Origin: Nocardioides baekrokdamisoli
Lineage (GTDB): Bacteria; Actinomycetota; Actinomycetes; Propionibacteriales; Nocardioidaceae
Reading direction: 5' to 3'
Assembly (NCBI RefSeq): GCF_003945325.1
Contig: NZ_AP019307.1
Coordinates: 1,116,001 to 1,180,000 of the forward strand
DNA length: 64,000 nucleotides
Notes under the pieces: model-generated
What the model was told of the DNA's origin: nothing
Seen by the model: only the letters and a program-made list of their open reading frames with translations
Databases searched by the model: none
Translations under genes and position numbers: made by a program
Part shown: one piece after another, positions 575 through 18,562 of the stretch
How positions within the stretch are numbered: the stretch's first letter is position 1
Layout: every line of letters starts with the position of its first letter

Positions 575-624
575 GAGCCGGCCGTTCGTTCGATGCCGGC
601 GTTCTCTGCCGAGGAAACGGCGCT

Positions 625-1898: not shown

Positions 1899-2053
1899 GA
1901 CGATTCCTGCTCCTCGTGCCGTCGAACTCCCGCGTGCATCATGCCGCATGCGCCGTGGGGAAGGGTCGACCCTGCAGCGGGCGACAGCGCGACGCGGCCA
2001 GCCGGTTTACTGGGAACCATGAGGCTGGCACTGACGGATCGAGGGCTGCGGCC

Positions 2054-3427
2054 GTGAACAAGTCCGCGAGATTGACGCCGCAACAGCGGGCATGGAACTG
2101 GTACGACTGGGCCAATTCTGCCTTCTATACGACGACTTTGGCGGTGCTGTTTGCGCCGTTCATGATCACGGTAGCCAGCCACGCCGCCGGCTGCGCTGAT
2201 GCCGAGGACACCTGTCGCAATCCAGTCAGCGTCTTCGGCCTTCACCTTGCGGCGGGGTCGCTGCCGAGCTACCTGATCAGCTTCGCCACGATCAGCAGCG
2301 CGCTGGTGCTGCCGGTGGTGGGTGCATTTGTTGACCGTAGCCCGCGCAAGAAGTGGCACATGGCGGGCTACGGCTGGGCAGCTAGTGCCTGTGCGGCGTT
2401 GCTCTTCTTCATGCAGGGCAGCCAGTGGCAGTTGGCTGCCTTCGCGATCGTCGCGGCGAGCGTGCTGGGCGGCTGCTCACTGGTGGCCTATTACGCGATC
2501 CTGGTCGACATCTCCACCGAAGACGAGCGCGACGCGGTGTCGTCGCGGGGCTGGGCCTGGGGCTACCTCGGCGGCGGATTGCTGCTTCTGATCAACCTTG
2601 TCATGGTCCAGGCTCACAGCAACTTCGGACTGAGCAAGGAACTCGCAGTGCGGCTGTCCCTGCTCTCTGCCGCTGTCTGGTGGGCAGCGTTCACCATCAT
2701 CCCGCTGGTACGCCTGCGCAACTACGCCCCGACGCGTGAGGCACAGACGGGGTCCTTGATGCAGCGCAGCTTCGGCCAGTTGTTCACGACCCTGAAAGAC
2801 ATGCGCGCATTTCCGCACACGCTCACCTTCCTGATCGCATACCTCTTTTACAACGACGGAATCCAGACAGTCATCGGCAGCGCATCGACCTATGGATCCA
2901 AGCAGCTGGGCATGAGCCAGACCGTGCTGATCAGCACCATTCTGATGATCCAGTTCGTGGCGTTCGGGGGCGCCCTCGCCTTCGGTCGGCTCGCGCAGCG
3001 GTTCGGCTCCTACCGACCGATTCTCTGGGGCACTGTCGGCTGGATGGTGATCGTGGTGTTGGCCGTGTTCGTTCCTCGCGGCAGTGTCGCGCTCTTCATC
3101 GCACTGGGGGTGTTGATCGCGATCGTGATGGGTGGAACCCAGGCGCTGTCCCGGTCCTTCTTCTCGCTGTTGATCCCGCGGGGGCGCGAGGGCGAGTACT
3201 TCGCCCTCTACAACGCGTGCGAGCGCGGCACATCGTGGTTCGGCACGCTGCTGTTCGGCGTGGTGTTTCAGGTCACCGGGTCGTATCGCCCGGCGATCGT
3301 CGCGCTGATTGTCTTCTTCATTCTCGGCGCGATCTTCTTGCTCCGGGTGGACCCGCGACGCGGCATCGAGGAGGCCGGCAACCGCGTGCCCGGGCAAGCG
3401 TTCGAGGCCTTGCGACCGGCGTCATAG
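2054..3427 (+). CDS. MFS transporter, UMF1 type
   Basis: 457 residues from the GTG at 2054, which is preceded by a GAGG-like ribosome binding site; the frame is open upstream to 1916, but those residues are not hydrophobic and look non-coding. The N-terminus LTPQQRAWNWYDWANSAFYTTTLAVLFAPFM is the hallmark of the UMF1 (Vacuole effluxer Atg22-like) branch of the major facilitator superfamily. About twelve membrane helices follow, with the loop DRSPRKKWHMAGYG after helix 2. The transported substrate is unknown. It is the last gene before the accessory region. Confidence 0.88.
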   Translation: MNKSARLTPQQRAWNWYDWANSAFYTTTLAVLFAPFMITVASHAAGCADAEDTCRNPVSVFGLHLAAGSLPSYLISFATISSALVLPVVGAFVDRSPRKKWHMAGYGWAASACAALLFFMQGSQWQLAAFAIVAASVLGGCSLVAYYAILVDISTEDERDAVSSRGWAWGYLGGGLLLLINLVMVQAHSNFGLSKELAVRLSLLSAAVWWAAFTIIPLVRLRNYAPTREAQTGSLMQRSFGQLFTTLKDMRAFPHTLTFLIAYLFYNDGIQTVIGSASTYGSKQLGMSQTVLISTILMIQFVAFGGALAFGRLAQRFGSYRPILWGTVGWMVIVVLAVFVPRGSVALFIALGVLIAIVMGGTQALSRSFFSLLIPRGREGEYFALYNACERGTSWFGTLLFGVVFQVTGSYRPAIVALIVFFILGAIFLLRVDPRRGIEEAGNRVPGQAFEALRPAS

Positions 3428-3456
3428 GCGACCGGGATCGCTGCCGCCGAGTTCCG

Positions 3457-3720
3457 TCACGAATAGGCGTCACGTCGATGCCGCACAGTGATGACGCGTA
3501 CGAGGACACGTTCGTCATGAATCTCGTAGATGACCCGGAACTCCCCGCGCCGAGCGGAGTAGCGGCCTTCCAGTTCGTCGCGCAACGGCTTGCCGACGCG
3601 GTACGGACTTTCGGCCAGCGGCCCGAAGATGAACTGTGCACATGCTGCGGCAACGGCCTCTGGCAGGTCGACGCTCAACGAGCGCCGCGCTCGCGGCGAC
3701 AGGGAGATCGCGTACGTCAC
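3457..3720 (-). CDS. RelE/ParE-family toxin
   Basis: 87 residues starting at GTG 3720 (VTYAISLSPRARRSL). Its start overlaps the antitoxin stop by four bases (GTGA), the usual toxin-antitoxin arrangement. The fold signature is clear: the SPRARRSL motif on helix 1, PLRDELEGRYSARRGEFRVIYEIHDERVLVRVITVRHRRDAYS at the C-terminus, with the RxG-x-YRVIYEI and HRRDAY segments of the mRNA-interferase RelE group. It probably cuts ribosome-bound mRNA when freed from its antitoxin. Confidence 0.9.
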   Translation of the reverse strand: MTYAISLSPRARRSLSVDLPEAVAAACAQFIFGPLAESPYRVGKPLRDELEGRYSARRGEFRVIYEIHDERVLVRVITVRHRRDAYS

Positions 3721-5300: not shown

Positions 5301-5318
5301 GCTACACGTTGAAGCGGA
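5301..5318. repeat. Inner copy of ychF-tail repeat
   Basis: GCTACACGTTGAAGCGGA, matching 4648-4665 at 17 of 18 positions. It contains the displaced stop codon and last codons of the native ychF and abuts the attL core. Confidence 0.6.
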
Positions 5319-5350
5319 ACTCCACCACATTCCGTTATGCTTAGTGAGTG
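5302..5350. other. attL of the integrative element
   Basis: Bases 5302-5328 on the minus strand read VVEFRFNV-stop, the usual C-terminus of YchF, although the ychF gene lies 12 kb away. The 14-bp core CGGAACTCCACCAC (5315-5328) recurs at 17502-17515 inside the true end of ychF. To the right of the core the sequence is element DNA and ends in GTGAGTG (5344-5350), which overlaps the integrase start codon. This is therefore the chromosomal left junction next to the recombinase gene. Confidence 0.85.
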
Positions 5351-6754
5351 AAGGCTTCCGACAAGGCTCTGACCAGCGCAGATGCACTCATCCGCACAGC
5401 AAGAGCGAAGTCGTCGGCCACGGTCCCAGGGGCACGCCGAGCGGCGCTCTACCTGCGGCAGTCCCCTACCCGCAACGGCGAAGACGGCATCGAGCGCCAG
5501 CGCGAACGAACAACCGCTCTCGCGTCCTCTCGCGGTTGGCGCGTTGTCAGTGAATACGTCGACCTCGACGTGTCGGCATCGAAGACCCGTGGCAAGGGCA
5601 CGGACTGGGCACGAATGCTGACCGATCGATCCGCCGGTCTGATCGATGTCGTCATCGCCGTAGATCTCGACCGACTCCTCCGCTCGACTCGCGACCTCAA
5701 CGCGCTGATCGACGCCGGGCTGATGGCGGTGACGGTCGACGGCGAGATTGACCTCACGACCGCTGACGGTGAGTTCAGAGCGACGATGCTCGCAGGCATC
5801 GCGCGGTTTGAAGTGCGCCGGAAAGGCGAGCGCCAATCGCGCGCCAACCAGCAGCGAGCCGAACGGGGCGGCGTTCCCAAGGGCACCCGCTGCACGGGCT
5901 ACAACACAGACGGCACCGTGCGTGAGGACGAGGCAGAGACGGTGCGGGCACTGTTCAACGAGTTCGCCCAGGGAGACACCCTGCGCACTCTCTCGCGCCG
6001 CTACGAGCTGACCCCGTCCTCCGTGCGCACGATCCTCACCAACCCGCGCTACGCAGGACGACGGACCTATAAGGGCAAGGTAGTTGGGGATGGCTCGTGG
6101 ACGGCGCTGGTAGATCCGGTTGCTTTCGACCTCGTCAACGCCAGACTGGCCGACCCACGCAGAAAGACCAACGCGACAGGCACGACTGCTCGGAAGTACC
6201 TGGGCAGCGGGCTGTTCAGATGCGCGTGCGGTGATACTCGGCGGATCGTGTCCGGCGGGTCCGGTGGCACTCGCTACACCTGCCGAGGCTGTTACATGAC
6301 ACGCAACCGTGAAGCCGTCGATCAGTATGTGTTGGCTGTCCTGGCAGCACGGCTGCGTCAGCCTGACGCACTCGCTGCGCTTCGCCCAGGAATCGAGGGC
6401 CGCGACGATGCAGTCGACCTACTGGCCGAGCACACCGCACTTCGGGAGCGGCTGACCGGACTCGCGGCGCTCGTTGCCGATGGGACATTGACCCCCGACG
6501 ACGTGCGAGAGGCCGTCGAGCCGCTACGCGCGCGTCTGGCTGACGTTGAGACTGCATTGGCGGAACACGCACGAACGCCCGTGCTCGACGGCCTGGAGGG
6601 CGTACTGGACAAGCTCGACGAGGCGTGGCCGACGATGACGACCGACAGGCAACGAGCACTGGTAAGCCTGTTCATGACGGTCACCCTTCATCGCGCACAG
6701 CAAGGGCGAAAGGGTTTCGACCCGGAGACCGTGACGATCGATTGGACCCGATAG
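5348..6754 (+). CDS. Large serine recombinase (integrase) of the element
   Basis: 468 residues from GTG 5348. Residues 32-170 form the resolvase catalytic domain with the nucleophile Ser39 in YLRQS, then SIERQRE-like GIERQRERTTALA, YVDLDVSASKTRGKG, and DVVIAVDLDRLLRSTRDL. A recombinase domain follows (TRCTGYNTDGTVREDEAETVRALFNEF), and a zinc ribbon with Cys pairs in FRCACG and YTCRGC, then a coiled-coil segment. It would integrate and excise the element by recombining attP with attB in ychF. The start codon lies in the outer arm of the att site, so integration and expression may be linked. No ribosome binding site is obvious. Confidence 0.95.
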   Translation: MKASDKALTSADALIRTARAKSSATVPGARRAALYLRQSPTRNGEDGIERQRERTTALASSRGWRVVSEYVDLDVSASKTRGKGTDWARMLTDRSAGLIDVVIAVDLDRLLRSTRDLNALIDAGLMAVTVDGEIDLTTADGEFRATMLAGIARFEVRRKGERQSRANQQRAERGGVPKGTRCTGYNTDGTVREDEAETVRALFNEFAQGDTLRTLSRRYELTPSSVRTILTNPRYAGRRTYKGKVVGDGSWTALVDPVAFDLVNARLADPRRKTNATGTTARKYLGSGLFRCACGDTRRIVSGGSGGTRYTCRGCYMTRNREAVDQYVLAVLAARLRQPDALAALRPGIEGRDDAVDLLAEHTALRERLTGLAALVADGTLTPDDVREAVEPLRARLADVETALAEHARTPVLDGLEGVLDKLDEAWPTMTTDRQRALVSLFMTVTLHRAQQGRKGFDPETVTIDWTR

Positions 6755-7249
6755 CAATCACCCAAGTTTGGTGCGGAATCCGTCCGAGCACAGGGATCTC
6801 ACAGTCCAGGCCACAGCACCGCACATACCTGCACATCCCTGCTGAGCGGGACGAGAACAGAGCGCACACCCCAGCACACCTCAACGTCAGATCCGGTGTG
6901 CGGATGCGCGCGTACCTAGAAGTACGCGCAGCACAGCGAGAGGGCACATCAGGCGGAACCTCGTTCAATCCATACGCCAGGCGGCGGAGAGTTGAGAGGG
7001 GACGAATCGACGACTAAATGCCCTAATGGGGCTGATATCGTTGCCTCAGCAACAAACTGTCCGGGTAGCTCTCGTGCGCTAGTCCCGGGTCACAGTTCCT
7101 GTGGGCACCCGGAGCACCCGGCGCGGCGCAGAGACACGAGTAGCGACCTTGGCCACCCGGCCCTGGCAGGTGCGAAAAATCAGAAGCAATGGACATGGTG
7201 CCTAAAATCCTGGCGACCGGAGCTTCGCATCCCCGCCAGGGACAGCACC
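6755..7249. other. Gene-free regulatory stretch between integrase and replication genes
   Basis: No convincing gene is seen in these 495 bases. Open frames here lack protein-like composition. A perfect 8-bp hairpin GCGCGTAC...GTACGCGC (6908-6929, 6-base loop) could end the integrase transcript, GTTGC-ctca-GCAAC (about 7040-7053) is another small hairpin, and a tandem GCACCCGGA GCACCCGG lies near 7104-7120. It is a plausible site for an origin of replication for the adjacent prim-pol protein or for promoters, but this is not shown by the sequence. Confidence 0.4.
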
Positions 7250-7492
7250 GTGACCATCAAGACCAGCGCCTCCCGGCGCTCCAACGCCGACCCACACGGG
7301 CGGTATCGCGCAGCGGGCCGCGTGGCGCGCGCATCATCGCTCGGAACAGACGCGACTGAGGCTCGCCGCGATCTCGCTGCCGCCCAGATCGCCTGCGCGA
7401 TCGACAAGGCTCTAGCGGACGCTCCCCCGTTGACGAAGGCCCAGCGCGCCCACCTCGCCGGTCTGCTCGTGGACGCGGGCGGTGACGCGTGA
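7250..7492 (+). CDS. Small element-borne protein upstream of the replication gene
   Basis: 80 residues from GTG 7250 (VTIKTSASRRSNADP), chosen because only the C-terminal part of the open frame looks like protein. The end, ARRDLAAAQIACAIDKALADAPPLTKAQRAHLAGLLVDAGGDA, is of a type commonly found just before prim-pol genes in actinobacterial integrative elements. Its stop overlaps the next start by four bases (GTGA). The function is unknown; it is possibly a replication accessory protein. Confidence 0.65.
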   Translation: MTIKTSASRRSNADPHGRYRAAGRVARASSLGTDATEARRDLAAAQIACAIDKALADAPPLTKAQRAHLAGLLVDAGGDA

Positions 7493-9519
7493 GCACGTTC
7501 AAGGACCCCGCTCTCGGGTGGACGAAGCGAGGCGCATTCGTCTTCCCCCTCCGGTCAACCAAGAGGCCCAACGGCCAGAAGGGATGGCGCGAGCGCGGAG
7601 CGACGCCAGAGCAGATCGCCGCCTGGCCCTCGTCTGTGACCGGATACGGGATCGACTGCGAGAGCGCTCGCCTCGTCGTGCTGGACGAGGACAGGCCGGG
7701 CGCGGTCGCTGAACTTGAGCAGCTGCTGGGGATCTCGCTCCCACCAACTCTCACTGTCAGTACAGGTCGTATCGGTGGAGGCAGGCACGTAATCTTCGAG
7801 CACGACCACGAGGTGTGCAGGATCGGGAATCGTGAGCCTTCAGGGTGGCCCGACGGCCTGAATATTCGAGGCGCTGGTGGCTTCATCGTTGGCACCGGCT
7901 CGCAACACTTCGACAGCAGGAACCAGCCAACCGGCAACTGGTACGAGGTCGCCGAAGACGTCCCCATCGCGCCACTACCCAGCGAGTTGGCCGACTGGCT
8001 AAGTACTGGCTCAGCCACCAAAACCGTTCAGACCGAGGATGGCTGCGAGATGGAGTCAAGCGACCGCAGTTGCACAGAGACCGAACGAGAGTGGGCCGAC
8101 AAATACCTCCGAGAAGCGTGCGATCGAATCCGCTCAGCTCAGGAAGGCACACGCAACCAAACCCTCCGGGACAAGGCGTTGCCCGTGTGCTCGTTGGTCA
8201 AGGCGGGATACCTCGATTCACACGACGCAGAGACGGCATTGGCTGATGCTGCGGCCGACGCCGGACTGCCGCCGGGCGAGGTAGGGGCGACCATCACGAA
8301 CGCGATCAAGGACGCCGATCCCGAGCGTGGCCCCCGCCCGTCGCTATCCGTTGCCGAGATGTTCGACGTTCTGGATCCCCTGCCGCCCATGCCTGACGAA
8401 GCCGACGTCCAGCGCGAGCTTCGACTTCTACGAGCCAGGACCGAAGCGAGGCGCCGGTTCGCCACCGAGTCTGTCGGGGCGGCTGACCGACATAGCGACT
8501 ACATGACTCTGGACGACCTCGATGCCCTGCCCGCAATGCCTTGGTTCATCGATGGCCGACTGCCCGAGGGCTATGCCTTGCTCACGGGTCGTGACGGGAC
8601 ATTCAAGACTTTCATCGCCCTGGACATGGCGTTGAGCATCGCCGCGGGAATCCCCTGGCAGGGCAGGGCTGTAACACAAGCGCGGGTGCTGTATGTGGCA
8701 GGTGAGGGCGCGCGCAACATCAACAACCGAGTACGGGCCTGGCTCACGGCTCACCCTGAAGTAGCCCGCGCCGACCTCGTCGATCAGTTCACTGTCCGCA
8801 CTAGTGCGCCGAACTTCTACGCCGCCGGTACGAGCTACGAGGACCTGCTGCACAACGCTTCCGGCTACGGCGTGGTCGTCCTAGACACCCTTCGGCGGAT
8901 CTCGGGAGCTGCAGACGGAAACGGGTCGGATATGGCGACGGTCGTTGATCGAATCGCCGATCTCGTCCGGGTGCTAGACCACGGAACCGGTGGACTCGCC
9001 CTGGTGATCGCGCACACCCAGAAGAATGACACTGACACCCGCGGCTACTCCGGCATCGAGGACGACGCCGACGCCGTCCTCCACACGAATCGACAGGGCG
9101 CGTCAATGCACGTGACCGTAGAGGTGTCCAAGCAGAAGGACGGGGAAGACGGCGCGAAGGACCACCTGACCCTCATGTCCGTGACCCTCAGCTCCACTGA
9201 TTCCTCGCTGACCGTTGATCCGCAGTCGTTGCAACCGATGCCGAACGAGACTCCACGCCAGGAGCGCGAGCGGCTGATCTTGGAGCATCTCGATGCAGTC
9301 AGGAACATCGGCGCGGCAGCGGGCGAGGTCGTCGCCGCATTGGGAGGAGGACACAACCGCACGACCATCAACAAGCACTTGAGTGAACTAGTCGGTAAGG
9401 GCCGAATCGAGAAGCAGGGTCAGCGCTACTACCCCGGCTCTACGGAGTCTGAGGCCATTGCGCTCGGATTCCGGATCGAACCCGATGTGTCCGACGCTGA
9501 CGAGGAGATTGATCGATGA
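7489..9519 (+). CDS. Bifunctional prim-pol / RepA-like ATPase replication protein
   Basis: 676 residues. Residues 1-165 form a bifunctional primase-polymerase (prim-pol) domain, with the metal-binding DED at 66-68 (VVLDEDRPGA) and STGRIGGGRHVIF containing His100. After a linker, residues ~340-560 form a RecA/RepA-like ATPase with Walker A GRDGTFKT (367-374) and Walker B VVVLDTL (~462-468), then AHTQKND and SGIEDDADAVL. The C-terminus (NRTTINKHLSELVGKGRIEKQGQRYY) is a winged helix. It should prime and unwind the element's own origin, so the element probably replicates after excision. It is coupled to the upstream (GTGA) and downstream (ATGA) genes. Confidence 0.9.
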   Translation: MSTFKDPALGWTKRGAFVFPLRSTKRPNGQKGWRERGATPEQIAAWPSSVTGYGIDCESARLVVLDEDRPGAVAELEQLLGISLPPTLTVSTGRIGGGRHVIFEHDHEVCRIGNREPSGWPDGLNIRGAGGFIVGTGSQHFDSRNQPTGNWYEVAEDVPIAPLPSELADWLSTGSATKTVQTEDGCEMESSDRSCTETEREWADKYLREACDRIRSAQEGTRNQTLRDKALPVCSLVKAGYLDSHDAETALADAAADAGLPPGEVGATITNAIKDADPERGPRPSLSVAEMFDVLDPLPPMPDEADVQRELRLLRARTEARRRFATESVGAADRHSDYMTLDDLDALPAMPWFIDGRLPEGYALLTGRDGTFKTFIALDMALSIAAGIPWQGRAVTQARVLYVAGEGARNINNRVRAWLTAHPEVARADLVDQFTVRTSAPNFYAAGTSYEDLLHNASGYGVVVLDTLRRISGAADGNGSDMATVVDRIADLVRVLDHGTGGLALVIAHTQKNDTDTRGYSGIEDDADAVLHTNRQGASMHVTVEVSKQKDGEDGAKDHLTLMSVTLSSTDSSLTVDPQSLQPMPNETPRQERERLILEHLDAVRNIGAAAGEVVAALGGGHNRTTINKHLSELVGKGRIEKQGQRYYPGSTESEAIALGFRIEPDVSDADEEIDR

Positions 9520-9737
9520 GCGCCCGACGCAGTCAACGAATGCGCGACGCCCGCAGGGCCGCCAAGACGATCTCTGCCCATGCGGATGGCATCCCAGCCT
9601 GCCCCGACTGTCCCGCGACGGCAGCGCCTTGGGAGCAGTCACCCGGCGTCGTGGTGATCAAAGTGGTGCACGATCTAGATTGCCCGTGGTTCAAGGCGCA
9701 CGAAGCTCGGAACCATCGGCTAGGCGAGGCTCGGTAG
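9516..9737 (+). CDS. Small CxxC protein of the element
   Basis: 73 residues, start overlapping the replication gene stop (ATGA). It has a basic N-terminus (SARRSQRMRDARRAAKT), then CPDCP and DLDCPWFKAHEARNHR, which may make a zinc-binding site with a histidine. I do not recognise a family. Position in the operon suggests a replication or regulatory accessory role. Confidence 0.6.
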   Translation: MSARRSQRMRDARRAAKTISAHADGIPACPDCPATAAPWEQSPGVVVIKVVHDLDCPWFKAHEARNHRLGEAR

Positions 9738-9783
9738 CGGCCGGAACGCCGCGGAAAGACGCGCTGACGATCAGGCGTTGTTT

Positions 9784-10059
9784 TCAGCTGTCGGACGACG
9801 GGGCCCGAGGCTGGCTACGCATTGGCAGCAACGCACTCGGCTCGAGATTAAGGCCGTCGGCAAGCCGGGCGATCTGATCGAGGGTCGGGTTGGCCTCGCC
9901 ACGTTCGATTCCGGACAAGTAGCGGCGACTCATGCCGATGTCGTGGGCGAGCGCCTCTTGGCTGATGCCCACAGCCTCGCGGGCCGCACGGAGGGATTGC
10001 CCGAAAGCCACCCGATAGTCAGTCAGCGGAGGCCGCGACTGCTTACCCGGTGAGCGCAC
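9784..10059 (-). CDS. XRE-family transcriptional regulator of the element
   Basis: 91 residues from GTG 10059. FGQSLRAAREAVGISQEALAHDIGMSRRYLSGIERGEANPTLDQIARLADGLNLEPSALL (residues ~19-78) is a complete Cro/C1-type helix-turn-helix domain with the typical SQEALA and YLSGIERGEANPT motifs. It is transcribed opposite to the replication genes and is a candidate repressor controlling the element's integration or copy number. A palindrome that could be its operator lies 36 bp upstream. Confidence 0.92.
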   Translation of the reverse strand: MRSPGKQSRPPLTDYRVAFGQSLRAAREAVGISQEALAHDIGMSRRYLSGIERGEANPTLDQIARLADGLNLEPSALLPMRSQPRAPSSDS

Positions 10060-10094
10060 ACATGCACGTTGCCCTTACGGGTTTCTGGAAACCA

Positions 10095-10108
10095 CGCTAT
10101 ACATAGCG
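10095..10108. promoter_or_regulatory. Palindrome upstream of the XRE regulator
   Basis: CGCTAT-AC-ATAGCG is a perfect 6+6 palindrome in the leader of the divergent XRE gene. Autoregulated XRE repressors bind such sites; no experiment or second copy supports this here. Confidence 0.4.
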
Positions 10109-10165
10109 CAGACAATTACAGTTTCGCACTTCCCAATCGAAGTGCGGCGTGAAGTGGGCGGCGCG

Positions 10166-10252
10166 ATGAACGACCTCAAGGCAATCAGGATCCTTCTGGG
10201 GATCATCGTCATCATCCTGGGCCTCTGGATGGCAGGCCTCGTCGGACACTGA
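10166..10252 (+). CDS. Predicted 28-residue membrane peptide
   Basis: The short frame MNDLKAIRILLGIIVIILGLW... ends at the TGA of 10250-10252. It encodes a basic N-terminus and a single 18-residue hydrophobic helix, ending LVGH. In-frame GTGs at 10142 and 10154 could extend it by four to eight residues. It lies in the 359-bp space between the XRE gene and the next predicted membrane protein. The strongly hydrophobic, in-frame composition argues for a real small protein, but there is no strong ribosome binding site. Confidence 0.35.
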   Translation: MNDLKAIRILLGIIVIILGLWMAGLVGH

Positions 10253-10347
10253 CGCGGCCGACGGGTTGTCGATCCGAGCAGGGGTCTCACGTTCTGACGC
10301 TCCCGCTCGCGGTGCCTCCGGCGCTTGCTGGGAGCGTAGCACGGATA

Positions 10348-10361
10348 TCTTGACGTCAAGA
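10348..10361. promoter_or_regulatory. Perfect 14-bp palindrome, likely operator
   Basis: TCTTGACGTCAAGA is a perfect palindrome 57 bp upstream of the next gene. It also contains TTGAC, as in a -35 box, so a repressor bound here could block the promoter. The protein that would bind is unknown. Confidence 0.45.
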
Positions 10362-10418
10362 GACTCCGTGGTCAGACAAGGGTAAGTCGGACACGACATT
10401 GAGTAGAGGGAGCTGCAC

Positions 10419-10781
10419 ATGAAGAAAAGAGGGGTCGCCGTGATGATCGGCGTTGCGATTGCCCTGCTTGCGGTCGCGGGGTTCCTTGTCTTCAAGTTCG
10501 CCATTGGCGGGAAGTACGGCACTGGCGGCGACAAGTCCGCAGCTTGCTCGGCGGCTTGGGCATACGAGCAGAGCGCTGGCGAGGCGTCCACGGCCCTCCC
10601 CGGCAATCTGTCTACCGCCTTTGCCTCAGTCGGAGACGCATTGAATCAGCTTGAATCAGTAGGGCCGTCCAAGGTCGCAGCCGCCGCCAGGACACTATTG
10701 ACCGCGCCGATGTCCAGCCTCGATGCCGCCAAGGCGAACACGTTGATCACCGAGTACGTCCACGACAAGTGCGGCCTGTAA
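10419..10781 (+). CDS. Small membrane-anchored or secreted protein of the element
   Basis: 120 residues. ATG 10419 follows GAGGGAG at good spacing. One membrane segment (about residues 7-28, AVMIGVAIALLAVAGFLVFKFAI) is followed by an extracytoplasmic helical domain rich in Ala, Ser and Thr with two cysteines (ACSAAW and the near-terminal DKCGL) that could form a disulfide. I do not recognise the family. It stands alone, preceding the four-gene operon by about 200 bp. Confidence 0.7.
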   Translation: MKKRGVAVMIGVAIALLAVAGFLVFKFAIGGKYGTGGDKSAACSAAWAYEQSAGEASTALPGNLSTAFASVGDALNQLESVGPSKVAAAARTLLTAPMSSLDAAKANTLITEYVHDKCGL

Positions 10782-10979
10782 CTGGCCGCTGCTCCGGCTA
10801 GAGCTGATGCGTGGCAGGGCATGACGCCTTTGCGCTTCGATCGCGGCGAGATCGCAACCTGGTTGGATCGAACGGAATCGCAAATTGCCTGGAGTTCGCG
10901 AGCGACGGGCGGCCAGATTCTGTCTACGGCTGGAGCTAGGATCGCACCATCTGCAAGAGGGATGGAGCCGTCACCCAAC

Positions 10980-11537
10980 ATGAGCAACAAGCCGGAGATG
11001 GGCATCGATGACGCCATCGTGCTGCTGCTTGGGGCCCCCGGAAGCCCCGGCTCAGTCCCGGGCCGCTTGAACGGCATCACCCGCCTAGAGAAGCTGGTGT
11101 TCCTCCTTGAGAAGGAGACGCAAGCCCCAGAGTGGTTGACCGAAGAAGCGAACTTCGAGCCGTACAACTTTGGCCCGTTCTCAGCAGAGGTCTACAAGGC
11201 CGTGGACATGCTTTCTGCGGCCAAGCTCGTCGTCGACAGCGGCAGTAAGGCTGCGTCCGACGAGGACACCTGGGAGCAGCGCAACATGATCGGCGGAGAG
11301 CTAGCCGGCGATGATCCCTACGCAACCCGCGATTTCGAACTCACTGATCGCGGTTGGCGTTACTTCCACGCGCTCGCTGCCGAGTTGCCCGACGGCGCGA
11401 TCGAAGACGTAGCGGGCCTCAAGCAACGTTTCGCCCGTTTGCCGCTGCGGCAGCTCGTCCGGTACGTCTACCAGCGATACGAGGACTACACCACGAAGTC
11501 GATAATCCGAGACGACATTCTCGGACGTCGCCCGTGA
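10980..11537 (+). CDS. SocA/Panacea (DUF4065)-like protein, operon gene 1
   Basis: 185 residues from ATG 10980, which has GGAG 12 bases upstream; ATG 10962 and a more distant ATG at 10821 are alternatives. ITRLEKLVFLLEKE (33-46) and FEPYNFGPFSAEVYKAVDMLSAAKLV (59-84) resemble the LQKLLY...YGPFS...EVY pattern of the Panacea/SocA antitoxin domain, followed by FELTDRGWRYF and a helical end (RYVYQRYEDYTTKSII). In toxin-antitoxin pairs that domain inhibits diverse toxins. It starts a run of four genes whose ends overlap, so it may be the control subunit of that system. Family match is by pattern memory only. Confidence 0.7.
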   Translation: MSNKPEMGIDDAIVLLLGAPGSPGSVPGRLNGITRLEKLVFLLEKETQAPEWLTEEANFEPYNFGPFSAEVYKAVDMLSAAKLVVDSGSKAASDEDTWEQRNMIGGELAGDDPYATRDFELTDRGWRYFHALAAELPDGAIEDVAGLKQRFARLPLRQLVRYVYQRYEDYTTKSIIRDDILGRRP

Positions 11538-12103
11538 ACCCCGATCTCCGAGTAGCCATCATCGGGGTTGGGGTGGCGGTGGCAACTCCGGCCATCGCGG
11601 CGATTTGGCGGACTGCAACGCTGAGAGGCGATACGTTAGAGAAGCTTGGCGATCGGGTGGAGATCGCACACTCGGGCCTCTCAGAACTCGCGCTCGAACG
11701 CCTTCGGAACGTTCAGGAGAAGACGGACCAGCACTTGGGTGAGGTTGACGGCTCCTTCAGCCCTGAGTTCGTAGTGGCAGATCCGGGCGAGATTGTCAGC
11801 CTGACCCGTGACTTCGAGAGTGCGATCAAGATTCGCGATACCTTGCGCGATCGCTTTCAAGCCCTGCTGTTCATCTGCAAGTGGGCCTGGGTTCCTGCTG
11901 TCATCTACCTTGCGGGAGTCGTGCTGATTACAGCGCTCTGCGCGACGGATACCCATACGCGCCTTTGGCGAACCTCAGCCTTCACAGTCGTCGGTGTCGG
12001 CGTTCTACTCGGAGCAGTTGTCGTCATCTGTTACCACTATCTCCACGGCGAGATCACCTCAGCTGAGCTCCTTGCCCGGCCGAAAGGGGTGCGGCATGAC
12101 TGA
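11534..12103 (+). CDS. Three-segment membrane protein, operon gene 2
   Basis: 189 residues from GTG 11534, which overlaps the previous stop by four bases (GTGA). Hydrophobic segments lie at about 5-24, 117-136 and 148-168. Between the first and second is a soluble, probably helical region of ~90 residues (ERLRNVQEKTDQHLGEVDGSF...FESAIKIRDTLRDRF). No known family was recognised. A membrane effector or sensor in an operon with a nuclease would be typical of a defence system, but its role here is inference. Confidence 0.7.
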   Translation: MNPDLRVAIIGVGVAVATPAIAAIWRTATLRGDTLEKLGDRVEIAHSGLSELALERLRNVQEKTDQHLGEVDGSFSPEFVVADPGEIVSLTRDFESAIKIRDTLRDRFQALLFICKWAWVPAVIYLAGVVLITALCATDTHTRLWRTSAFTVVGVGVLLGAVVVICYHYLHGEITSAELLARPKGVRHD

Positions 12104-12536
12104 AGCTCCCCGCCCGTCATTTGCAGCCGAAGGCGAGATGGTCACTCCCCTACTTGAATGGCTCAGGCGTACTCGCCGCGCGCCAAGAGGAACGGAAGTT
12201 CGCTTCGAGCTGCCCTGGAGGGGCCGACGAGTCGATGTAGCCACATTGACGCGAAGCGGCTCCTTGAGCGCATTCGAACTTAAGCTCGGCGGCTTCTCCC
12301 GCGTTCTTGAGCAAGCGATCTACAACAGCATGAGTTTCGAGCGCAGTTGGATCGTTGTTGAATCAGCACCGAACCCGGACAACGTTGAGGTAGCTCGACG
12401 CGAAGGTATCGGCATTATCCAAGTCGGCGCGCGGGCGCATGCCCTCCTCCTGCCACACGAAGAGCGAATCAACCCGCTCGTTCGACAACGGTTGCGCCAA
12501 GTATTCGACCGGACGGGGGGGCACCAGATTGTTTGA
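12096..12536 (+). CDS. PD-(D/E)XK nuclease-like protein, operon gene 3
   Basis: 146 residues from ATG 12096 (AAAGGGG ribosome binding site; overlaps the previous gene by 8 bp). The core GRRVDVATLTRSGSLSAFELKLGGF gives Asp47, Glu61 and Lys63, spaced as the D-(X)n-ExK active site, with VEQ-like LEQAIYNSMSFERSWIVV (Gln73) after it, as in restriction-endonuclease-like folds. A helical N-terminus containing Glu14 (AEGEMVTPLLEWLRR) supplies the usual first motif. It may be a DNA or RNA nuclease; the substrate is unknown. Confidence 0.72.
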   Translation: MTEAPRPSFAAEGEMVTPLLEWLRRTRRAPRGTEVRFELPWRGRRVDVATLTRSGSLSAFELKLGGFSRVLEQAIYNSMSFERSWIVVESAPNPDNVEVARREGIGIIQVGARAHALLLPHEERINPLVRQRLRQVFDRTGGHQIV

Positions 12537-13764
12537 CACCTTCGACCACTACCTGAGTTACGGCGCCGCCGATCAACAGACGGCCCGTGAACTCACCGGA
12601 GACTACGACGGCCTCCTAGTGCCAGGAACAGTCGCCGCCTTCCAGAAGGATGGCACCAAGGGGTTTGTACTAACGCTCTCGGCTTCGCCCGCTAGCCCGC
12701 CGAGATACGTCATTGATCCACGGTTCCCCCTGTTTCATCAGGCGCTAAGCCGACCCAAGAAGTCTCACATTTCGCTCGCGGAAGTCCTTGGAGATCCGGG
12801 GCTCGTCTCGGGCTTCGAGTTCGACCCGGAAGAGTTCGAGACGGGGCGGCTGCAGAACATCGCCACCCACTGGGTGCAGTTCAATCTCGGGTACACGGAA
12901 CTCAACTCGAAGCACTTTGACAAGTACGCCCAACGACTCGGGGAGGCCGTCGTTTCGGAAGACGCGACGCTGCCTGAAGCGATCCTTCCCCCCTACCTAA
13001 TGGCCAGCTCGACGGATGACCCGCGCTGGACCATTTCGAGTGAGCTTTGGCGACTGACGCAGGAGGAGCTTGCAGCGCGCTCCGCCCAGGTCCCCGCGTT
13101 TCGGGTGGTGGCTGCGGAGACCGCGCCAGCACTCGAAGGACTGTTGGCGTCGGCACCAGAGTCGCGCGTCGTTATCTGGGTCGATAGCCTGGACGAGCTC
13201 CAGGTCGACTTGGCGGGGCGGGCTCGGCTCGTCGCATACGGGCGGGCAATACGAGCTGCCTCACAGTCTGGGAAGAAGATGTTCGCGCTGTACGGCGGGT
13301 ACTTCGCAGTGTTGCTCGGATCGGTCGGCTTGAACGGCTGCTCGCACGGTATCGGATTTGGCGAAAATCGGGCCTACGTCGAGCTGCCCAACTCCGGGCC
13401 TCCGCCCGCGCGTTACTACCTTCCAGCCGTCCACAAATACATCAGCCAAGACCTAGCCCAGTACCTGTACCTCTACGCGCCAGCCCTATTGGACTGCACC
13501 TGCCGGGAGTGCGCCGACCTCGGGCCAGGCGACCTGGACTATCACAGCCTGATGAAGCATTCCGTCCACGCCCGAGCCAACGAGGTGCGCGCCGCCAGCG
13601 GGAAGAGCGCAGCGACGCTCGCGGACGAGCTCGCCGATTCAGCTCGGTTCATCGCCCGCACGCTCAGCTCGGTCGGATTCCCGAAGAACCTCGACCGACA
13701 AGTGCAGACCCTCTACAGCCACCTCGACCCGTGGGCGGCTTGCCTCCGAGAGATCGCCGACTGA
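12529..13764 (+). CDS. Large enzyme with tRNA-guanine-transglycosylase-like zinc motif, operon gene 4
   Basis: 411 residues from TTG 12529, which overlaps the previous stop by 8 bp and follows a G-rich ribosome binding site. The N-terminal 300 residues look like an alpha/beta barrel (VPGTVAAFQ, FVLTLSASPASPPRYVIDPRFPLFHQAL, NIATHWVQFNLGYTEL, VVIWVDSLDELQ, ALYGGYFAVLLGSVGLNGCSHGIGFGENRAYVELPNSGPPPARYYLPAVHKYIS). Near the C-terminus DCTCRECADLG has Cys323, Cys325 and Cys328 in a CxCxxC arrangement, with His339/344/347 after it, as in the zinc site of tRNA-guanine transglycosylases. The TGT catalytic aspartate motifs are not evident. Assignment to that superfamily is a hypothesis. Confidence 0.6.
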   Translation: MFDTFDHYLSYGAADQQTARELTGDYDGLLVPGTVAAFQKDGTKGFVLTLSASPASPPRYVIDPRFPLFHQALSRPKKSHISLAEVLGDPGLVSGFEFDPEEFETGRLQNIATHWVQFNLGYTELNSKHFDKYAQRLGEAVVSEDATLPEAILPPYLMASSTDDPRWTISSELWRLTQEELAARSAQVPAFRVVAAETAPALEGLLASAPESRVVIWVDSLDELQVDLAGRARLVAYGRAIRAASQSGKKMFALYGGYFAVLLGSVGLNGCSHGIGFGENRAYVELPNSGPPPARYYLPAVHKYISQDLAQYLYLYAPALLDCTCRECADLGPGDLDYHSLMKHSVHARANEVRAASGKSAATLADELADSARFIARTLSSVGFPKNLDRQVQTLYSHLDPWAACLREIAD

Positions 13765-13832
13765 GAGATCCAGACGAGCCACGCCCACGCCCATCAAGGA
13801 AGGACCACAGGCGCGGCGCCACGTGCGAGTTG

Positions 13833-14204
13833 TCACGAACCAAGACGCGCGATCAACTTTTCGACAAGAACCACGTCGTCGAGATCCAACTCATCGATGG
13901 TCGGCGCGAGCCGCTGCACTGTTGCCGAGTATCCGGAGCCCGTATCGACGCCGTAGAAGTCGGCGCAAACCATTGAGGCAACCTGCTCACGGCTCGTACC
14001 CAGTAGCTTCGCAAGCCCGCCGAAATCATCCGGCGTCGGCGGCCCAACTCGACCAGCCCCAGCCGACCCCCACGCCCCCCTCTCAGCCATGTTCTTGAGC
14101 CAGGAATGCGAGCGGACGCGGTCGGCGTCAACCGACATTTCGATCCAGTCCTTCCCGGAGGCACGGACCTTCTTGAGCGAATCCTGCAAAGGCGTTGCGG
14201 TCAT
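13833..14204 (-). CDS. Uncharacterised protein, possible regulator
   Basis: 123 residues. It contains a predicted helix-turn-helix-like stretch, PTPDDFGGLAKLLGTSREQVASMVCADFYGVDTGSGYSATVQRLAPTIDELDLDDVVLVEKLIARLGS. Its layout (a short N-terminal region, a helical DNA-binding-like core, and a conserved-looking acidic tail) is reminiscent of small XRE-like repressors in actinobacterial elements. It is transcribed away from the GmrSD gene, sharing a 238-bp divergent region, so it may control that gene. Family identity is not certain. Confidence 0.5.
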   Translation of the reverse strand: MTATPLQDSLKKVRASGKDWIEMSVDADRVRSHSWLKNMAERGAWGSAGAGRVGPPTPDDFGGLAKLLGTSREQVASMVCADFYGVDTGSGYSATVQRLAPTIDELDLDDVVLVEKLIARLGS

Positions 14205-14442
14205 AGTGTCAGGCTAGCGCTTATGGCCTCGCATCACAATGACTGTCATACCTATATGTTGGTTGGCACTATTCTTATTCGCTGAGTACCGCTCGGGCTC
14301 CGTCCGAAGCACCCCGATGCCCCGTGCCCCGCTTCATCGGGGAAGCCTCTATTCGCGCCCTCGACGTCGGCTGCCGCCACACATCGAACCCCTCGGTCGT
14401 GTTAACAGCACACGTGTCGATCGGCTGCGGCATGATGCGTCC

Positions 14443-16263
14443 ATGAAGGCTGAGGAGACACTCGTAGCGAATCTGTTCGAGAGCAAGCAGCAGGTCCGCG
14501 TCCCCGTCTGGCAGCGTCGCTACAGCTGGGACAAGTCGGACTGGCGAGACCTCTGGGACGACATCGTCCGGGCGCGCGACGAGAAGCGCACCCACTTCTT
14601 GGGCAGCTTTGTCTTCATGACTCACCCGGTGAGCGGAATCCCATCTGAGGCCAAGCGGTTCGACATCGTCGACGGCCAACAGCGCACCATCACGCTGTTT
14701 CTCTTGGTCGCAGCGATCCGCGATGCGGTGGTCGCGCTCGGAGCGGACGAGGACCAGAGGGCAACGGAGTTTCAGGACTACACGTCGCAGTTGCTGATGA
14801 ACGCGAACCTGAAGGATGGCCATCGCGAGCGCCTGGTCCTACAACTGTTCGACGATCCCAGCTTCGCTGCGATCGTGGCTGGAGACACGACTACATCCGC
14901 TGAATCACCCGTGACCAAAGCCTACGGATACTTCAGGGGCGTGTTGGCCCCACTGACCCGGGATCAGCTCGATGCGACCCTCGCGGCGATCCTGACCAAA
15001 CTTGAAGCTGTTTGGGTGACCCTCGCTGAGAACGACAATGCTCACCGCGTTTTCCAGACCCTCAACGCTGGCGGCAAGCCGCTTCGCCAGTCCGATCTCG
15101 TGAGGAACTACTTCTTCCTGCTGCTTGGAGAAAAGGGAGCGAGCTTCTACGAGACGCAATGGTCCAAGATGGAAAGCCACGTGTCGAGCCGCGAAATCGA
15201 ACGATACTTCTCCGCATGGAGCATTAGTCAAGGGCATTCTGGCAGTACCGAATCAGTGTTCAGCTACTTCCAAAAGGACTTGGCCAACCATGAAACCGAT
15301 TCGGCCAATGTACTGGCTTACGGAGCCGCCCTCATCGAGGCGGCAACTCTATTTTCGTGGATTCGCCAACCCAATAGCTGCCCGATCACTGCGGCGAAAC
15401 GTGCGCTAACCGACCTTCACCATTGGGGCAGCCTTCCGGCCGAGGGTTTGGTCCTGTACCTCTTGCGCAGGCACCGAGCAGGGTCACTCAGCGGAGATGC
15501 GCTGTCTGATTGCATCCACTTGATTCTCTCCTTCATGGCCAGGCGAATGCTGGCGGGCTACGAGCCGAACCTTCACAAGTCGATCTTCGTCGGAGTTGCG
15601 CGGAAGCTCCGCGCTGAGGAGCATCTCAGCGACGCGGACGTCGCCACCTATCTACGGCTGATCCTGTCCTCAGGACAGGATGTTCGAACTTGGCCTAACG
15701 ACGATGCGGTCAAGCACTACGCAAGCCAGAACCCGATCTACTTGAAGTCTCGCCAGCATTGGGTCTTCGGAGTTCTAGAGCGTCTCAACAGTTCGCTGAT
15801 CAAATACTCCAAGCACAAGCCAGATTCGCTTGACCGCAACAAGTACCAGGTTGAGCACGTCATGCCACAGAAACTCACCACTGAGTGGGAGGGCGACCTG
15901 ACGTCCTGGGGTTCCGAGAATGCAACACAAACCCATCAAACGTTGGCTCACGTCCTTGGCAACCTGACGTTGACAGCGATCAACCCACAGCTGAGCCAGA
16001 AGCCGTTTGGCGAGAAAAAGCCGATGCTCCAGGACGACTGGCTAAAGCTGAACTCCGAGATCGCGCTCCTAGATGAATGGTCCGAGGCGCAAATCGTGGC
16101 ACGCTCGGGCGAATTGGCCGAACGTGCTTGCGCCGAGTACCCCGCTCCCTATGCATTCGACGAGTTGGAAAACGTGAAGACCCACCTTGGGCTAGGCCAG
16201 GTTCCGACGCTGCCTGAAGAAGACGACCAAACCACGGACGAGATCCTTCTGGATGAGGATTGA
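14443..16263 (+). CDS. GmrSD-like type IV restriction enzyme (DUF262-DUF1524 fusion)
   Basis: 606 residues from ATG 14443. The N-terminal DUF262 domain has VPVWQRRYSWDKSDWRDLWDDI (20-41) and FDIVDGQQRTITLFLL (73-88), the DGQQR signature of ParB/sulfiredoxin-like GmrS. The C-terminal DUF1524 domain has YQVEHVMPQKL (about 468-478) and GNLTLTAINPQLSQKPFGEKK (about 505-525), the HNH-type GmrD nuclease. GmrSD enzymes cut DNA with modified (glucosylated hydroxymethyl) cytosine in phage genomes, powered by nucleotide hydrolysis. Here it is probable phage defence cargo. Confidence 0.9.
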   Translation: MKAEETLVANLFESKQQVRVPVWQRRYSWDKSDWRDLWDDIVRARDEKRTHFLGSFVFMTHPVSGIPSEAKRFDIVDGQQRTITLFLLVAAIRDAVVALGADEDQRATEFQDYTSQLLMNANLKDGHRERLVLQLFDDPSFAAIVAGDTTTSAESPVTKAYGYFRGVLAPLTRDQLDATLAAILTKLEAVWVTLAENDNAHRVFQTLNAGGKPLRQSDLVRNYFFLLLGEKGASFYETQWSKMESHVSSREIERYFSAWSISQGHSGSTESVFSYFQKDLANHETDSANVLAYGAALIEAATLFSWIRQPNSCPITAAKRALTDLHHWGSLPAEGLVLYLLRRHRAGSLSGDALSDCIHLILSFMARRMLAGYEPNLHKSIFVGVARKLRAEEHLSDADVATYLRLILSSGQDVRTWPNDDAVKHYASQNPIYLKSRQHWVFGVLERLNSSLIKYSKHKPDSLDRNKYQVEHVMPQKLTTEWEGDLTSWGSENATQTHQTLAHVLGNLTLTAINPQLSQKPFGEKKPMLQDDWLKLNSEIALLDEWSEAQIVARSGELAERACAEYPAPYAFDELENVKTHLGLGQVPTLPEEDDQTTDEILLDED

Positions 16264-16506
16264 TCGCCTTCGGCGAGATGCCCTTCGCCGCCTACGCGGC
16301 GGAGCGTCGTAGGACGCAGTATTAGTTGCGTTGGGACGAGTCATACAGGTCGACTATGGCGCGCGTTTGACCATGCGAAGGTGGGCGCTACGCTCCATAG
16401 CCACCTGCAGTGGAGGAACTCCACCGCGCTCGAGCCAGTCGCCTCGGATGTCCTGCCCCAGACGCGCGCTTAGTATTTGGTGCGATCGCCCGTGCCCCTC
16501 AAGGGC
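16264..16506. other. Intergenic region between convergent defence genes
   Basis: This 243-bp space holds a CGCCGC-ctac-GCGGCG hairpin near 16287 and related short inverted repeats just after the GmrSD gene stop; these could form a terminator. Nothing else is recognised. Confidence 0.35.
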
Positions 16507-17280
16507 CTACGAGGCCTCTCCGCCCCTCACTGCTTCAGCTTGTGCGACCCATCGCGCGAACAGGCTCCAAGTCGCCAGCGTCTCCAGCGCCTCTTGCTCG
16601 GTGAGCCCGTCTGCCCCGACGTGGTTCAGCGGGTTCCGCACACCAGAAAAGAGACCCTGCCCGAGCATGATCGCTCCGATGTGCCGGTCCTTGAACAAGT
16701 CGGGGTTCGACTCGTCGCACAGACGTAGGCGCACCTTCCCGGGCTCGGGAAATGACGTACCGAATGCCTCTTGCACCAACTTCGTCTCGCCGAGATCGGG
16801 GCGCTCAATCTTCGCCTTCAACTGCGAGTTGACATTGATCGCGGCGGCCCAGACAGAGGCGTCGTGATTGTTGCTCTCCCAGTGCGGTCGGGCAGCGTCC
16901 CAGACCCAAGGGTGCAGTGCATCAGCCGCAATAGCTGGGCCGGGTGACAACAAGCCGAGGCGCTCGCGGACCGCATAGCCTTCCTCCAACTCGAAAATGA
17001 GCGAGCGAACGTCTCCGGCTTCAAGGCGCCAGCGGTAACCGTTGTTCCACTTCTCCCAGACCGCGTCGGCAACAAGGCGGACACGATTCCCCACGCGGTT
17101 GCGCGCTTCCTCCGTCCCTCGGGTCCGTGTCTTCGGCGCACCCGGTTCGCGCTTATCCTCGGGAATCGGTACGCGCTCCTGAAGCCGAAGCCACTCTCGG
17201 CACTGCTCGATCGCCCACTCGGTATCCACGCCTGCGATTCTCGCAGCGAGCACCGACAACCCCAGGCGTGGCCCAGCCAC
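16507..17280 (-). CDS. Ymh-domain (TIGR02391) protein
   Basis: 257 residues from GTG 17280; an in-frame GTG at 17229 (VDTEWAIEQ) is an alternative start. The C-terminal half, LHPWVWDAARPHWESNNHDASVWAAAINVNSQLKAKIERPDLGETKLVQEAFG, then HIGAIMLGQGLFSGVRNPLNH and EALETLATWSLFARWV, fits the Ymh/TIGR02391 family, whose RNP-[LA]xH motif is seen in several HEPN-like RNase domains. The NxxxH in VRNPLNH is suggestive of an RNase site, and such proteins are frequent in defence islands. The exact function is unknown. Confidence 0.75.
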   Translation of the reverse strand: MAGPRLGLSVLAARIAGVDTEWAIEQCREWLRLQERVPIPEDKREPGAPKTRTRGTEEARNRVGNRVRLVADAVWEKWNNGYRWRLEAGDVRSLIFELEEGYAVRERLGLLSPGPAIAADALHPWVWDAARPHWESNNHDASVWAAAINVNSQLKAKIERPDLGETKLVQEAFGTSFPEPGKVRLRLCDESNPDLFKDRHIGAIMLGQGLFSGVRNPLNHVGADGLTEQEALETLATWSLFARWVAQAEAVRGGEAS

Positions 17281-17485
17281 GGAACCGTACGCGGGCTATG
17301 GGCATTGGTGTCGCCTACATGATGTGTCACAACATGCAGACGCACGAACGAGTATCGGATGCGGTCGACCTTCGTTGCCCGGCCAGCCTCATCTTCGGCG
17401 TTGCGCAGGGGGACCGGGGCTCTGCGAAAATGGTCTAACCCGCACCCACGGTTAGGCGGTCAAACCGGTCCAGAAGTCCCGCCAT

Positions 17486-17517
17486 CACTCACGTGTTGTG
17501 ACGGAACTCCACCACGT
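17486..17517. other. attR of the integrative element
   Basis: The core CGGAACTCCACCAC (17502-17515) lies in the last codons of ychF. To the left, element DNA starts with CACTCAC (17486-17492), the inverted complement of GTGAGTG at 5344-5350. Joining 17486-17515 to 5329-5350 recreates a 52-bp attP with matching outer arms; joining 5302-5328 to 17516 onwards recreates an uninterrupted native ychF end (attB). Confidence 0.85.
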
Positions 17518-18562
17518 CGCCGTCCTTCATCACGTAGTCCTTGCCCTCCATGCGGGCCTTGCCGACCTCGCGAGCCTTGACCACGGAACCGGCAGTCATC
17601 AGATCATCGAAGGAGATGACCTCCGCCTTGATGAAGCCCTTCTGGAAGTCCGTGTGGATCACGCCGGCAGCCTCAGGAGCAGTGGCGCCCTTGCTGATCG
17701 TCCAGGCGCGTACCTCCTTGGGACCAGCGGTCAGATAGGTCTGCAGGCCGAGGGTGTCGAAGCCGACCCGGGCGAGCTGGTTGAGCCCGGACTCGTCGAT
17801 GCCGAGGTCGTTCAGCATTTCCAGGGCTTCCTCGTCGGTCATCTCGACCAGCTCGGACTCGATCTTCGCGTCGAGGAAGATCGCCTCGGCCGGAGCGATG
17901 AGTTCGCGCATCTGAGCCTTGAGGTCCTCGTCGGTGAGCTCGTCGGTGTCGCAGTTGAAGACGTAGATGAACGGCTTGGCCGTCAGCAGCGACAGCTCGC
18001 GCAGGAGTTCGCGATCGATCTTGGTGGCGATGATCGGCGTACCCGACTCGAGCGCCTCCTTGGCCTCCTTGGCGGCCTCGAAGTTGGCGGCGAAGTCCTT
18101 GTTCTTCTTCGCCTCCTTCTCCAGACGTACGACGGCCTTCTCGACCGTCTCGAGGTCGGCGAGGATCAGTTCGGTCTGGATCGTGGAGATGTCGTTGCCC
18201 GGGTTGACCTCGCCGTCGACGTGCGTGACGTCCTCGTCCCGGAAGACCCGGGTGACCTGGCAGATCGCAGCCGACTCGCGGATGTGAGCGAGGAACTTGT
18301 TGCCCAGGCCCTCCCCCTGCGACGCACCGCGGACGATGCCGGCGATGTCGACGAACTCGACCGTCGCGGGCAGCAGCCGCTCAGATCCGTAGATGGTGGA
18401 CAGCTTCGCCAGGCGATCGTCCGGAACGCCCACGACACCGACGTTCGGCTCGATCGTGGCGAACGGGTAGTTCGCCGCGAGCACGTTGTTCTTGGTCAGG
18501 GCGTTGAAGAGCGTCGACTTGCCCGCGTTGGGGAGTCCGACGATGCCGATGGTGAGAGCCAC
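17489..18562 (-). CDS. ychF: Redox-responsive P-loop GTPase/ATPase YchF
   Basis: 357 residues, the normal size. GLPNAGKST (residues 8-16) is the Walker A, followed by PFATIEPNVGVVGVPDDRL, DIAGIVRGASQGEGLGNKFL and the C-terminal TGS domain (AWTISKGATAPEAAGVIHTDFQKGFIKAEVISFDDL). YchF binds ribosomes and is an ATPase. Its last residues have been altered by the integration: the C-terminus is VVEFRHNT rather than the VVEFRFNV stranded at attL, with HNT and the stop written by element DNA. The reading frame is preserved. Confidence 0.97.
   Translation of the reverse strand: MALTIGIVGLPNAGKSTLFNALTKNNVLAANYPFATIEPNVGVVGVPDDRLAKLSTIYGSERLLPATVEFVDIAGIVRGASQGEGLGNKFLAHIRESAAICQVTRVFRDEDVTHVDGEVNPGNDISTIQTELILADLETVEKAVVRLEKEAKKNKDFAANFEAAKEAKEALESGTPIIATKIDRELLRELSLLTAKPFIYVFNCDTDELTDEDLKAQMRELIAPAEAIFLDAKIESELVEMTDEEALEMLNDLGIDESGLNQLARVGFDTLGLQTYLTAGPKEVRAWTISKGATAPEAAGVIHTDFQKGFIKAEVISFDDLMTAGSVVKAREVGKARMEGKDYVMKDGDVVEFRHNT

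Follow-up and report, generated by a model that had tools for sequence, protein, structure and literature searches.

A cassette resembling a modular Panacea-type defence system with a TGT-fold protein in an integrative element of Nocardioides baekrokdamisoli

Introduction

Panacea antitoxins are reported to neutralise unrelated toxins by binding them; several of these toxins depolarise membranes (PMC8832971, PMC10440598), and a role as sensor has been put forward for Panacea (PMC10440598). The screen described in these reports excluded loci whose neighbourhood conservation suggested operons of more than three genes (PMC8832971, PMC10440598), so that a four-gene Panacea architecture would fall outside it. 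Here, four overlapping genes at positions 10980-13764 of a 64,000-nucleotide stretch of the Nocardioides baekrokdamisoli genome (contig NZ_AP019307.1, positions 1,116,001 to 1,180,000; the whole stretch is called the window, and its own numbering is used) were analysed by computation. This cassette looks like a modular Panacea-type toxin-antitoxin or abortive defence variant, and no earlier description of the gene combination was found among the papers listed in searches of the open-licence PMC literature, supplementary files aside.

Like PanAT loci, the cassette begins with a Panacea-like protein whose gene overlaps the next, and it shares with them membrane proteins in the place of the toxin and the swapping of partners. 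It differs from PanAT in having four conserved genes rather than a locus of two (at most three), and in its two additional nucleic-acid-type proteins, which are more constant than the 'toxin'. TGT-fold proteins are recorded in Dpd and BREX-related (BRC) systems, together with other partners, in another report (PMC12839542). The cassette would likewise place a TGT-fold protein in a conflict system, but the component that is exchanged in it is a membrane or SIR2 protein, and none of the partner types DpdB, DpdC, PglZ and HerA was recognised among the four window proteins. A SIR2 protein as proposed alternative effector recalls the abortive systems Thoeris (ThsA), Dsr and SIR2-HerA; the partners in the cassette, in contrast, are Panacea-like, PD-(D/E)XK and TGT-like genes.

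Results

Layout and conservation of the cassette

The cassette comprises four genes on the + strand, with overlaps of 4, 8 and 8 bases between successive genes:

10980..11537, + strand: gene 1, Panacea/SocA-like control protein of 185 residues (hhalign family comparison, partial PADLOC match)
11534..12103, + strand: gene 2, three-helix membrane protein of 189 residues with a GTG start, proposed effector (hydropathy)
12096..12536, + strand: gene 3, PD-(D/E)XK nuclease-fold protein of 146 residues (fold, invariant residues)
12529..13764, + strand: gene 4, TGT-fold protein of 411 residues with a TTG start (fold, zinc motif)

None of the four proteins passed a curated Pfam or NCBIfam cut-off, and the products of genes 2-4 had no match among the PADLOC 2.0.0 models at E up to 1. 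The original prediction, made from the letters of the window, had described four genes overlapping by 4 or 8 bases, forming one unit inside a defence-carrying element and encoding a Panacea-like control subunit, a membrane protein, a nuclease with D47/E61/K63 and a large enzyme with a zinc motif, and had suggested a search for co-occurrence of the four families. The same four open frames were recovered, and the four families do recur together in other genomes, in the same order in all testable close loci, against the first refuting condition named with the prediction, that they never co-occur elsewhere. The assignments of the single genes, given below, agreed with the prediction in these points, and the element was traced by its recombinase, its ends and the adjoining GmrSD-type enzyme. 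The exchangeability of the membrane gene, in whose stead a SIR2 gene is found elsewhere, had not been part of the prediction.

A collection in which 84,980 species are each represented by a single genome was scanned with a 30-sequence alignment made from gene 4 and 29 selected homologues, which was needed since the single gene 4 sequence detected no relative; 11 loci were obtained, ten of them close. Relatives of gene 4 numbered 297 proteins at E <= 0.001, scored only among the 7995 candidates sharing most words. A second search gave 111 homologues, which may overlap with the 297, and some gene 4 homologues come from Planctomycetota and Acidobacteriota. Genes 1-4 were present in the same order and on the same strand in all nine close loci extending far enough 5' (L002-L009 and L011), the tenth, L010, beginning inside gene 4 and standing outside this count. 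With the window and plasmid pSI-1 of Arthrobacter sp. AK-1, on which the same four genes are all annotated as hypothetical, the four genes were found in 11 of 11 testable close loci. Hosts of close loci include Mycolicibacterium, Arthrobacter, Glaciibacter, Conexibacter, Solirubrobacterales, Acidimicrobiaceae and a Chloroflexi metagenome-assembled genome (MAG). Among 36 junctions from 12 loci, 28 overlap by at least 4 bases and five by a single base; at one the two genes abut exactly, and at two they are separated, by 7 and 13 bases, these counts depending on the starts chosen for the analysis. If the genes are inherited as a unit, correlated divergences are expected, and the pairwise amino-acid divergences of the four genes were correlated whichever two genes were compared (six pairings; r 0.70-0.92 across the 12 loci, or 0.69-0.79 without the distant L013); the observed correlation was reached by 0 of 5000 permutations in any pairing.

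By genome counts, the cassette family is rare and patchy: of 58 relatives only one had it, the window's genome itself, and of the phylum's 396 genomes two, this one and G239, the latter in the SIR2 form (see the next section). A search of 345 genomes returned matches in four, namely G453 (the centre of the search, locus L012), G630, G549 and G497. The matches in G549 and G497 were judged to be chance, as they corresponded to a frame opposite a 1020-codon open reading frame (ORF) and to 42 residues in a 229-residue secreted-looking protein. That in G630 (L034, 5528-7843) was rejected as a member of the system, being a real but remote TGT-like protein whose gene overlaps a PIN-domain gene by 4 bases; the two possibly form a separate pair. 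Nearby, an opposite-strand ORF matches the gene 3 profile (35 bits), and a ThiF gene and a small YukD-like (ubiquitin-like) ORF are also present. Searches of PDB sequences with alignments A1 (gene 4), A4 (gene 1) and A6 gave nothing convincing, the best match, 36 residues of A6 to a designed repeat protein, failing as a stretch. The phage collection contained no match to the distant gene 4 protein P0148, the only gene 4 query used.

Exchange of the fourth component

Gene 4 of L012 shares 21-25% identity with five close members, and the close and distant gene 4 groups were aligned by hhalign with a probability of 100 and E of 5e-42. Judged by gene content, the distant gene 4 relatives fall into two architectures, a membrane form and a SIR2 form. 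The membrane form was found in IMG/VR contig L013, to which contig L014 is near-identical, in the order gene 1, membrane gene, gene 3 and gene 4. In the SIR2 form the order is gene 1, gene 3, gene 4 and a SIR2-family gene, and the sample consists of three loci: L012 in an Ignavibacteria MAG (G453), L016/L035 in genome G239 of the window's phylum, and L018 on plasmid pHsi540 of Haloarcula sinaiiensis. These loci leave no space for a membrane gene between genes 1 and 3 and have no match to it, the window's gene 2 being the sole query in the comparison for L012 and L016.

The Haloarcula locus was detected by tblastn at 19% identity, and its operon membership was assigned from profiles and record labels. 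Its SIR2 gene (L018, 9363-10850) matched PF13289 with 86 bits, ThsA with E of 3e-18 and the candidate PDC-S25 with E of 6.5e-70, a strong assignment. The SIR2 call is weaker for L012 and L016 (E of 4e-6 and 1.4e-4 to PADLOC SIR2 models; PF13289 sub-threshold in L016), and GAG and LHG-type motifs were read by eye. Since the Haloarcula SIR2 protein has just 21% identity with its L012 counterpart and matches ThsA and PDC-S25, the SIR2 part itself may have been replaced more than once. Genes 1, 3 and 4 are kept in every examined locus of the system and the fourth component varies, which is the strongest single argument for the membrane protein as the effector.

Gene 1, gene 2 and gene 3

The gene 1 family was aligned by hhalign with 14 Panacea-type proteins over 112 columns (probability 88.9, E 2.4e-6), two unrelated pairings used as controls giving E of 0.25 and 0.28. 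Gene 1 thus appears to be a homologue of Panacea domain proteins, the homology being remote only. In PADLOC it gave partial matches to PDC-M19A (1.7e-9) and to a type I specificity-subunit model (6e-7), and a weak one to Cas12i (E 0.012). An alternative upstream start is available at 10821, and the alignable part across homologues begins near residue 8 counted from the start at 10980. The hydropathy peaks of gene 2 lie at residues 7-25, 120-138 and 148-166. Gene 3 has the PD-(D/E)XK fold and the active-site pattern E...D...ExK...Q, its residues E12, D47, E61, K63 and Q73 being invariant in all 21 aligned sequences; its fold is restriction-type, and its closest named folds are mostly DNA endonucleases.

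Gene 4 and the TGT fold

The nearest folds of gene 4 are tRNA-binding TGTs, archaeal ones foremost, and DpdA (7ui4) is match 42 in the Foldseek search. A fold search of BFVD gave loose matches only, some annotated as phage queuine tRNA-ribosyltransferases. The CxCxxC motif (C323/C325/C328) together with H344 makes up a zinc-ligand site of the TGT kind. In an alignment of 62 sequences each cysteine is kept in 60 and the histidine in 62; D63, a residue of the pocket motif, is invariant, so that pocket and zinc site together are kept in 60-62 of 62. The catalytic nucleophile of TGTs is an Asp in the stretch that runs from the GGxxVGE-like motif to the zinc cysteines. Gene 4 differs from TGTs in having no conserved Asp in this stretch, between its GxGE motif and the zinc cysteines; the best column reaches 34 of 62, and a shifted Asp is possible. 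It further differs from TGTs in being 12% identical to the archaeal enzyme 1iq8 and in having no PF01702 match in the seven members scanned (window, L012, L013, L016, L017 and L018 at E up to 1; the remote L034 protein at E up to 0.01). No NCBIfam match was obtained for gene 4 of the window, L013, L018 or L035. The kinship with TGTs is therefore argued from the fold and the zinc motif, profile similarity being absent elsewhere.

An ordinary TGT was found in nine of 11 host genomes, and the window's own genome had no TGT match. QueC (PF06508) was counted over a low Pfam cut-off in five of the 11 and was absent from six; the match was full-length in G453 only and short (20-30 bits) in the four others, the single match in the window's genome covering 61 of 210 positions with 20.4 bits. 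The description of gene 4 as a base-modifying-type enzyme in the original prediction was not supported in that wording, as the nucleophile Asp is not conserved, and the window's genome offers no TGT match and one short QueC match.

Genes 3 and 4 resemble in arrangement the sce7726/sce7725 pair (L038), in which an ORF with an ExK motif, read by eye, is followed by a 316-residue sce7725-family protein. Membership was not supported: gene 3 had a weak match to NF033832 (18.5 of 70 bits), and gene 4 had no match to NF033831. With hhalign against single sequences the similarity was unconvincing, at probabilities of 0.6 (gene 4) and 5.4 (gene 3). In L038 itself (14-3482) a 343-residue ORF lies downstream of the sce7725-family gene, and the apparent end of a type I specificity gene was read by eye upstream.

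Integrative element and neighbourhood

Window positions 5315-17515 form what we interpret, from the sequence features, as an integrative element of about 12.2 kb that carries a serine recombinase and has entered the 3' end of ychF. Besides the cassette, it contains the following features:

5315..5328, no strand: left element end, 14-base repeat (in-frame ychF end)
5348..6754, + strand: large serine recombinase (Resolvase and Recombinase)
7489..9519, + strand: Prim-Pol / AAA protein
9784..10059, - strand: HTH_3 regulator
14239..16263, + strand: GmrSD-type (type IV) restriction enzyme adjoining the cassette (scanned from 14443)
16507-17280, - strand: Hypoth_Ymh gene
17502..17515, no strand: right element end, the 14-base repeat again, within the ychF 3' end

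The gene ychF (17489-18562) now terminates in VVEFRHNT, and the - strand at 5302-5328 reads VVEFRFNV, each before a stop codon, the latter being the displaced original 3' end; FNV is the usual YchF C-terminus. A shared 14-mer also arose in 26 of 500 Markov simulations, so that the 14-base repeat taken by itself lacks significance, and the boundaries were therefore placed by the in-frame ychF ends and the position just before the recombinase. The best PADLOC models of the GmrSD-type gene were Orf5 and HEC-06. A small ORF at 13833-14204 had no family above cut-off. Another at 10419-10781, upstream of the operon, has an N-terminal hydrophobic stretch; it had no match in the related loci compared and is therefore probably outside the system.

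Elsewhere, copies of the cassette lie near SIR2 and HerA, an integrase and a serine recombinase (L008), near Shedu (L006), near a type ISP restriction enzyme and Multi_ubiq/ThiF genes (L009), and near phage-type integrases (L004 and L007). The type ISP enzyme of L009 (851-6301) is broken into two ORFs, and the Multi_ubiq and ThiF genes flank the cassette on the opposite side. A trypsin-like protease gene lies near the cassette of Mycolicibacterium hippocampi (L002, 10129-11451, - strand). The G+C content of the cassette was below that of its surroundings in all ten measured loci, by 0.8 to 18 points.

Discussion

The cassette, known here from genes and predicted folds, has in our judgement a little better than an even chance of being a modular, horizontally moving abortive-infection system. 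Behind this reading stand the order and overlap of the genes, their conservation and co-divergence, the predicted folds, the active-site residues, the effector swap and the mobile and defence-gene context. The core would consist of gene 1 as a Panacea-like control protein or sensor, gene 3 as a nuclease and gene 4 as a TGT-fold protein, with the membrane protein (in the window) or the SIR2 protein as exchangeable effector. In the resting state gene 1, perhaps with a gene 3/gene 4 complex, would keep the effector silent; gene 4 would bind nucleic acid via its TGT-like pocket and gene 3 would cut the nucleic acid so bound, or else the pair would detect phage-altered DNA or tRNA. Either event would change gene 1 and thereby free the effector. 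Once freed, gene 2 would depolarise the membrane and the SIR2 protein would destroy NAD.

Several results weigh against this proposal. The PF13274 cut-off (25.7 bits) was passed by gene 1 in none of seven members scanned; five had sub-threshold matches over most of the domain (16.3-22.6 bits), and two, the window's own among them, had none. Gene 2 is weakly conserved (13-30% identity). In the Foldseek comparison with TGTs, gene 4 reached no more than intermediate TM-scores (0.42-0.51, scaled to the query length), and a bacterial TGT profile, itself shallow (eight of 16 TGT loci kept after a motif filter), matched gene 4 over 13 columns at the zinc site only (E 0.27). The remote gene 4 relative of L034 stands without genes 1 and 2 and with a PIN gene instead. 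Defence genes were seen near four of nine chromosomal copies with listed flanking ORFs, which were partly scanned (16 proteins from six loci in the flanking Pfam scan; none from L003 and L011).

We think it unlikely that the cassette is instead an enlarged Panacea toxin-antitoxin module stabilising mobile elements, in which gene 1 would neutralise gene 2 or the SIR2 protein, genes 3 and 4 would be accessory and phage defence would not be the selected role. The Panacea-like gene opens the cassette and shares 4 bases with the membrane gene, and in PanAT pairs, too, the antitoxin more commonly leads; copies are carried on plasmids and an integrative element. However, the supposed toxin varies more than genes 3 and 4, which are kept when SIR2 replaces gene 2. 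The folds of genes 3 and 4, restriction-type and TGT/DpdA, would also suit a restriction-modification-like system, in which gene 4, like DpdA, would mark DNA with a modified base and gene 3 would cleave DNA without the mark. TGTs have been put forward as marking enzymes in BREX-related systems (PMC12839542), and the ordinary TGT in nine of 11 hosts implies that some 7-deazaguanine metabolism is around. Such a scheme nevertheless seems improbable to us, given that the nucleophile position lacks a conserved Asp, that the window's genome has no TGT match and full-length QueC was listed for one host of 11, with short matches in four, that no Dpd-type partner was recognised in the cassette, and that a swap to a SIR2 or membrane protein is unexpected for a marking system.

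Still less credence is given to a tRNA-directed action, by which gene 4 would bind tRNA or exchange a base in it, gene 3 would cut the tRNA and translation would stop, the membrane or SIR2 protein serving as a second layer of killing. The tRNA-binding nature of the nearest TGT folds and the kept zinc site and D63 speak for it, but the closest named folds of gene 3 are mainly DNA endonucleases, the nucleophile position is not conserved, and no RNA-binding domain was recognised besides the TGT fold.

A bolder version of the abortive-infection proposal, which we hold to be possible though rather doubtful, would make the cassette an immune system of bacteria and an archaeon, with a nucleophile-less TGT-fold sensor of phage-modified or damaged nucleic acid, a dedicated PD-(D/E)XK nuclease and a Panacea switch that licenses interchangeable killers, either a membrane pore or a SIR2 NADase. 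If the abortive-infection proposal is true, a scattered modular defence family has been missed by existing models, and the TGT fold, which otherwise serves to exchange bases in tRNA and DNA, would be used in the core of abortive infection. The cassette would then also offer a concrete setting in which effector swaps may test the sensor role proposed for Panacea (PMC10440598).

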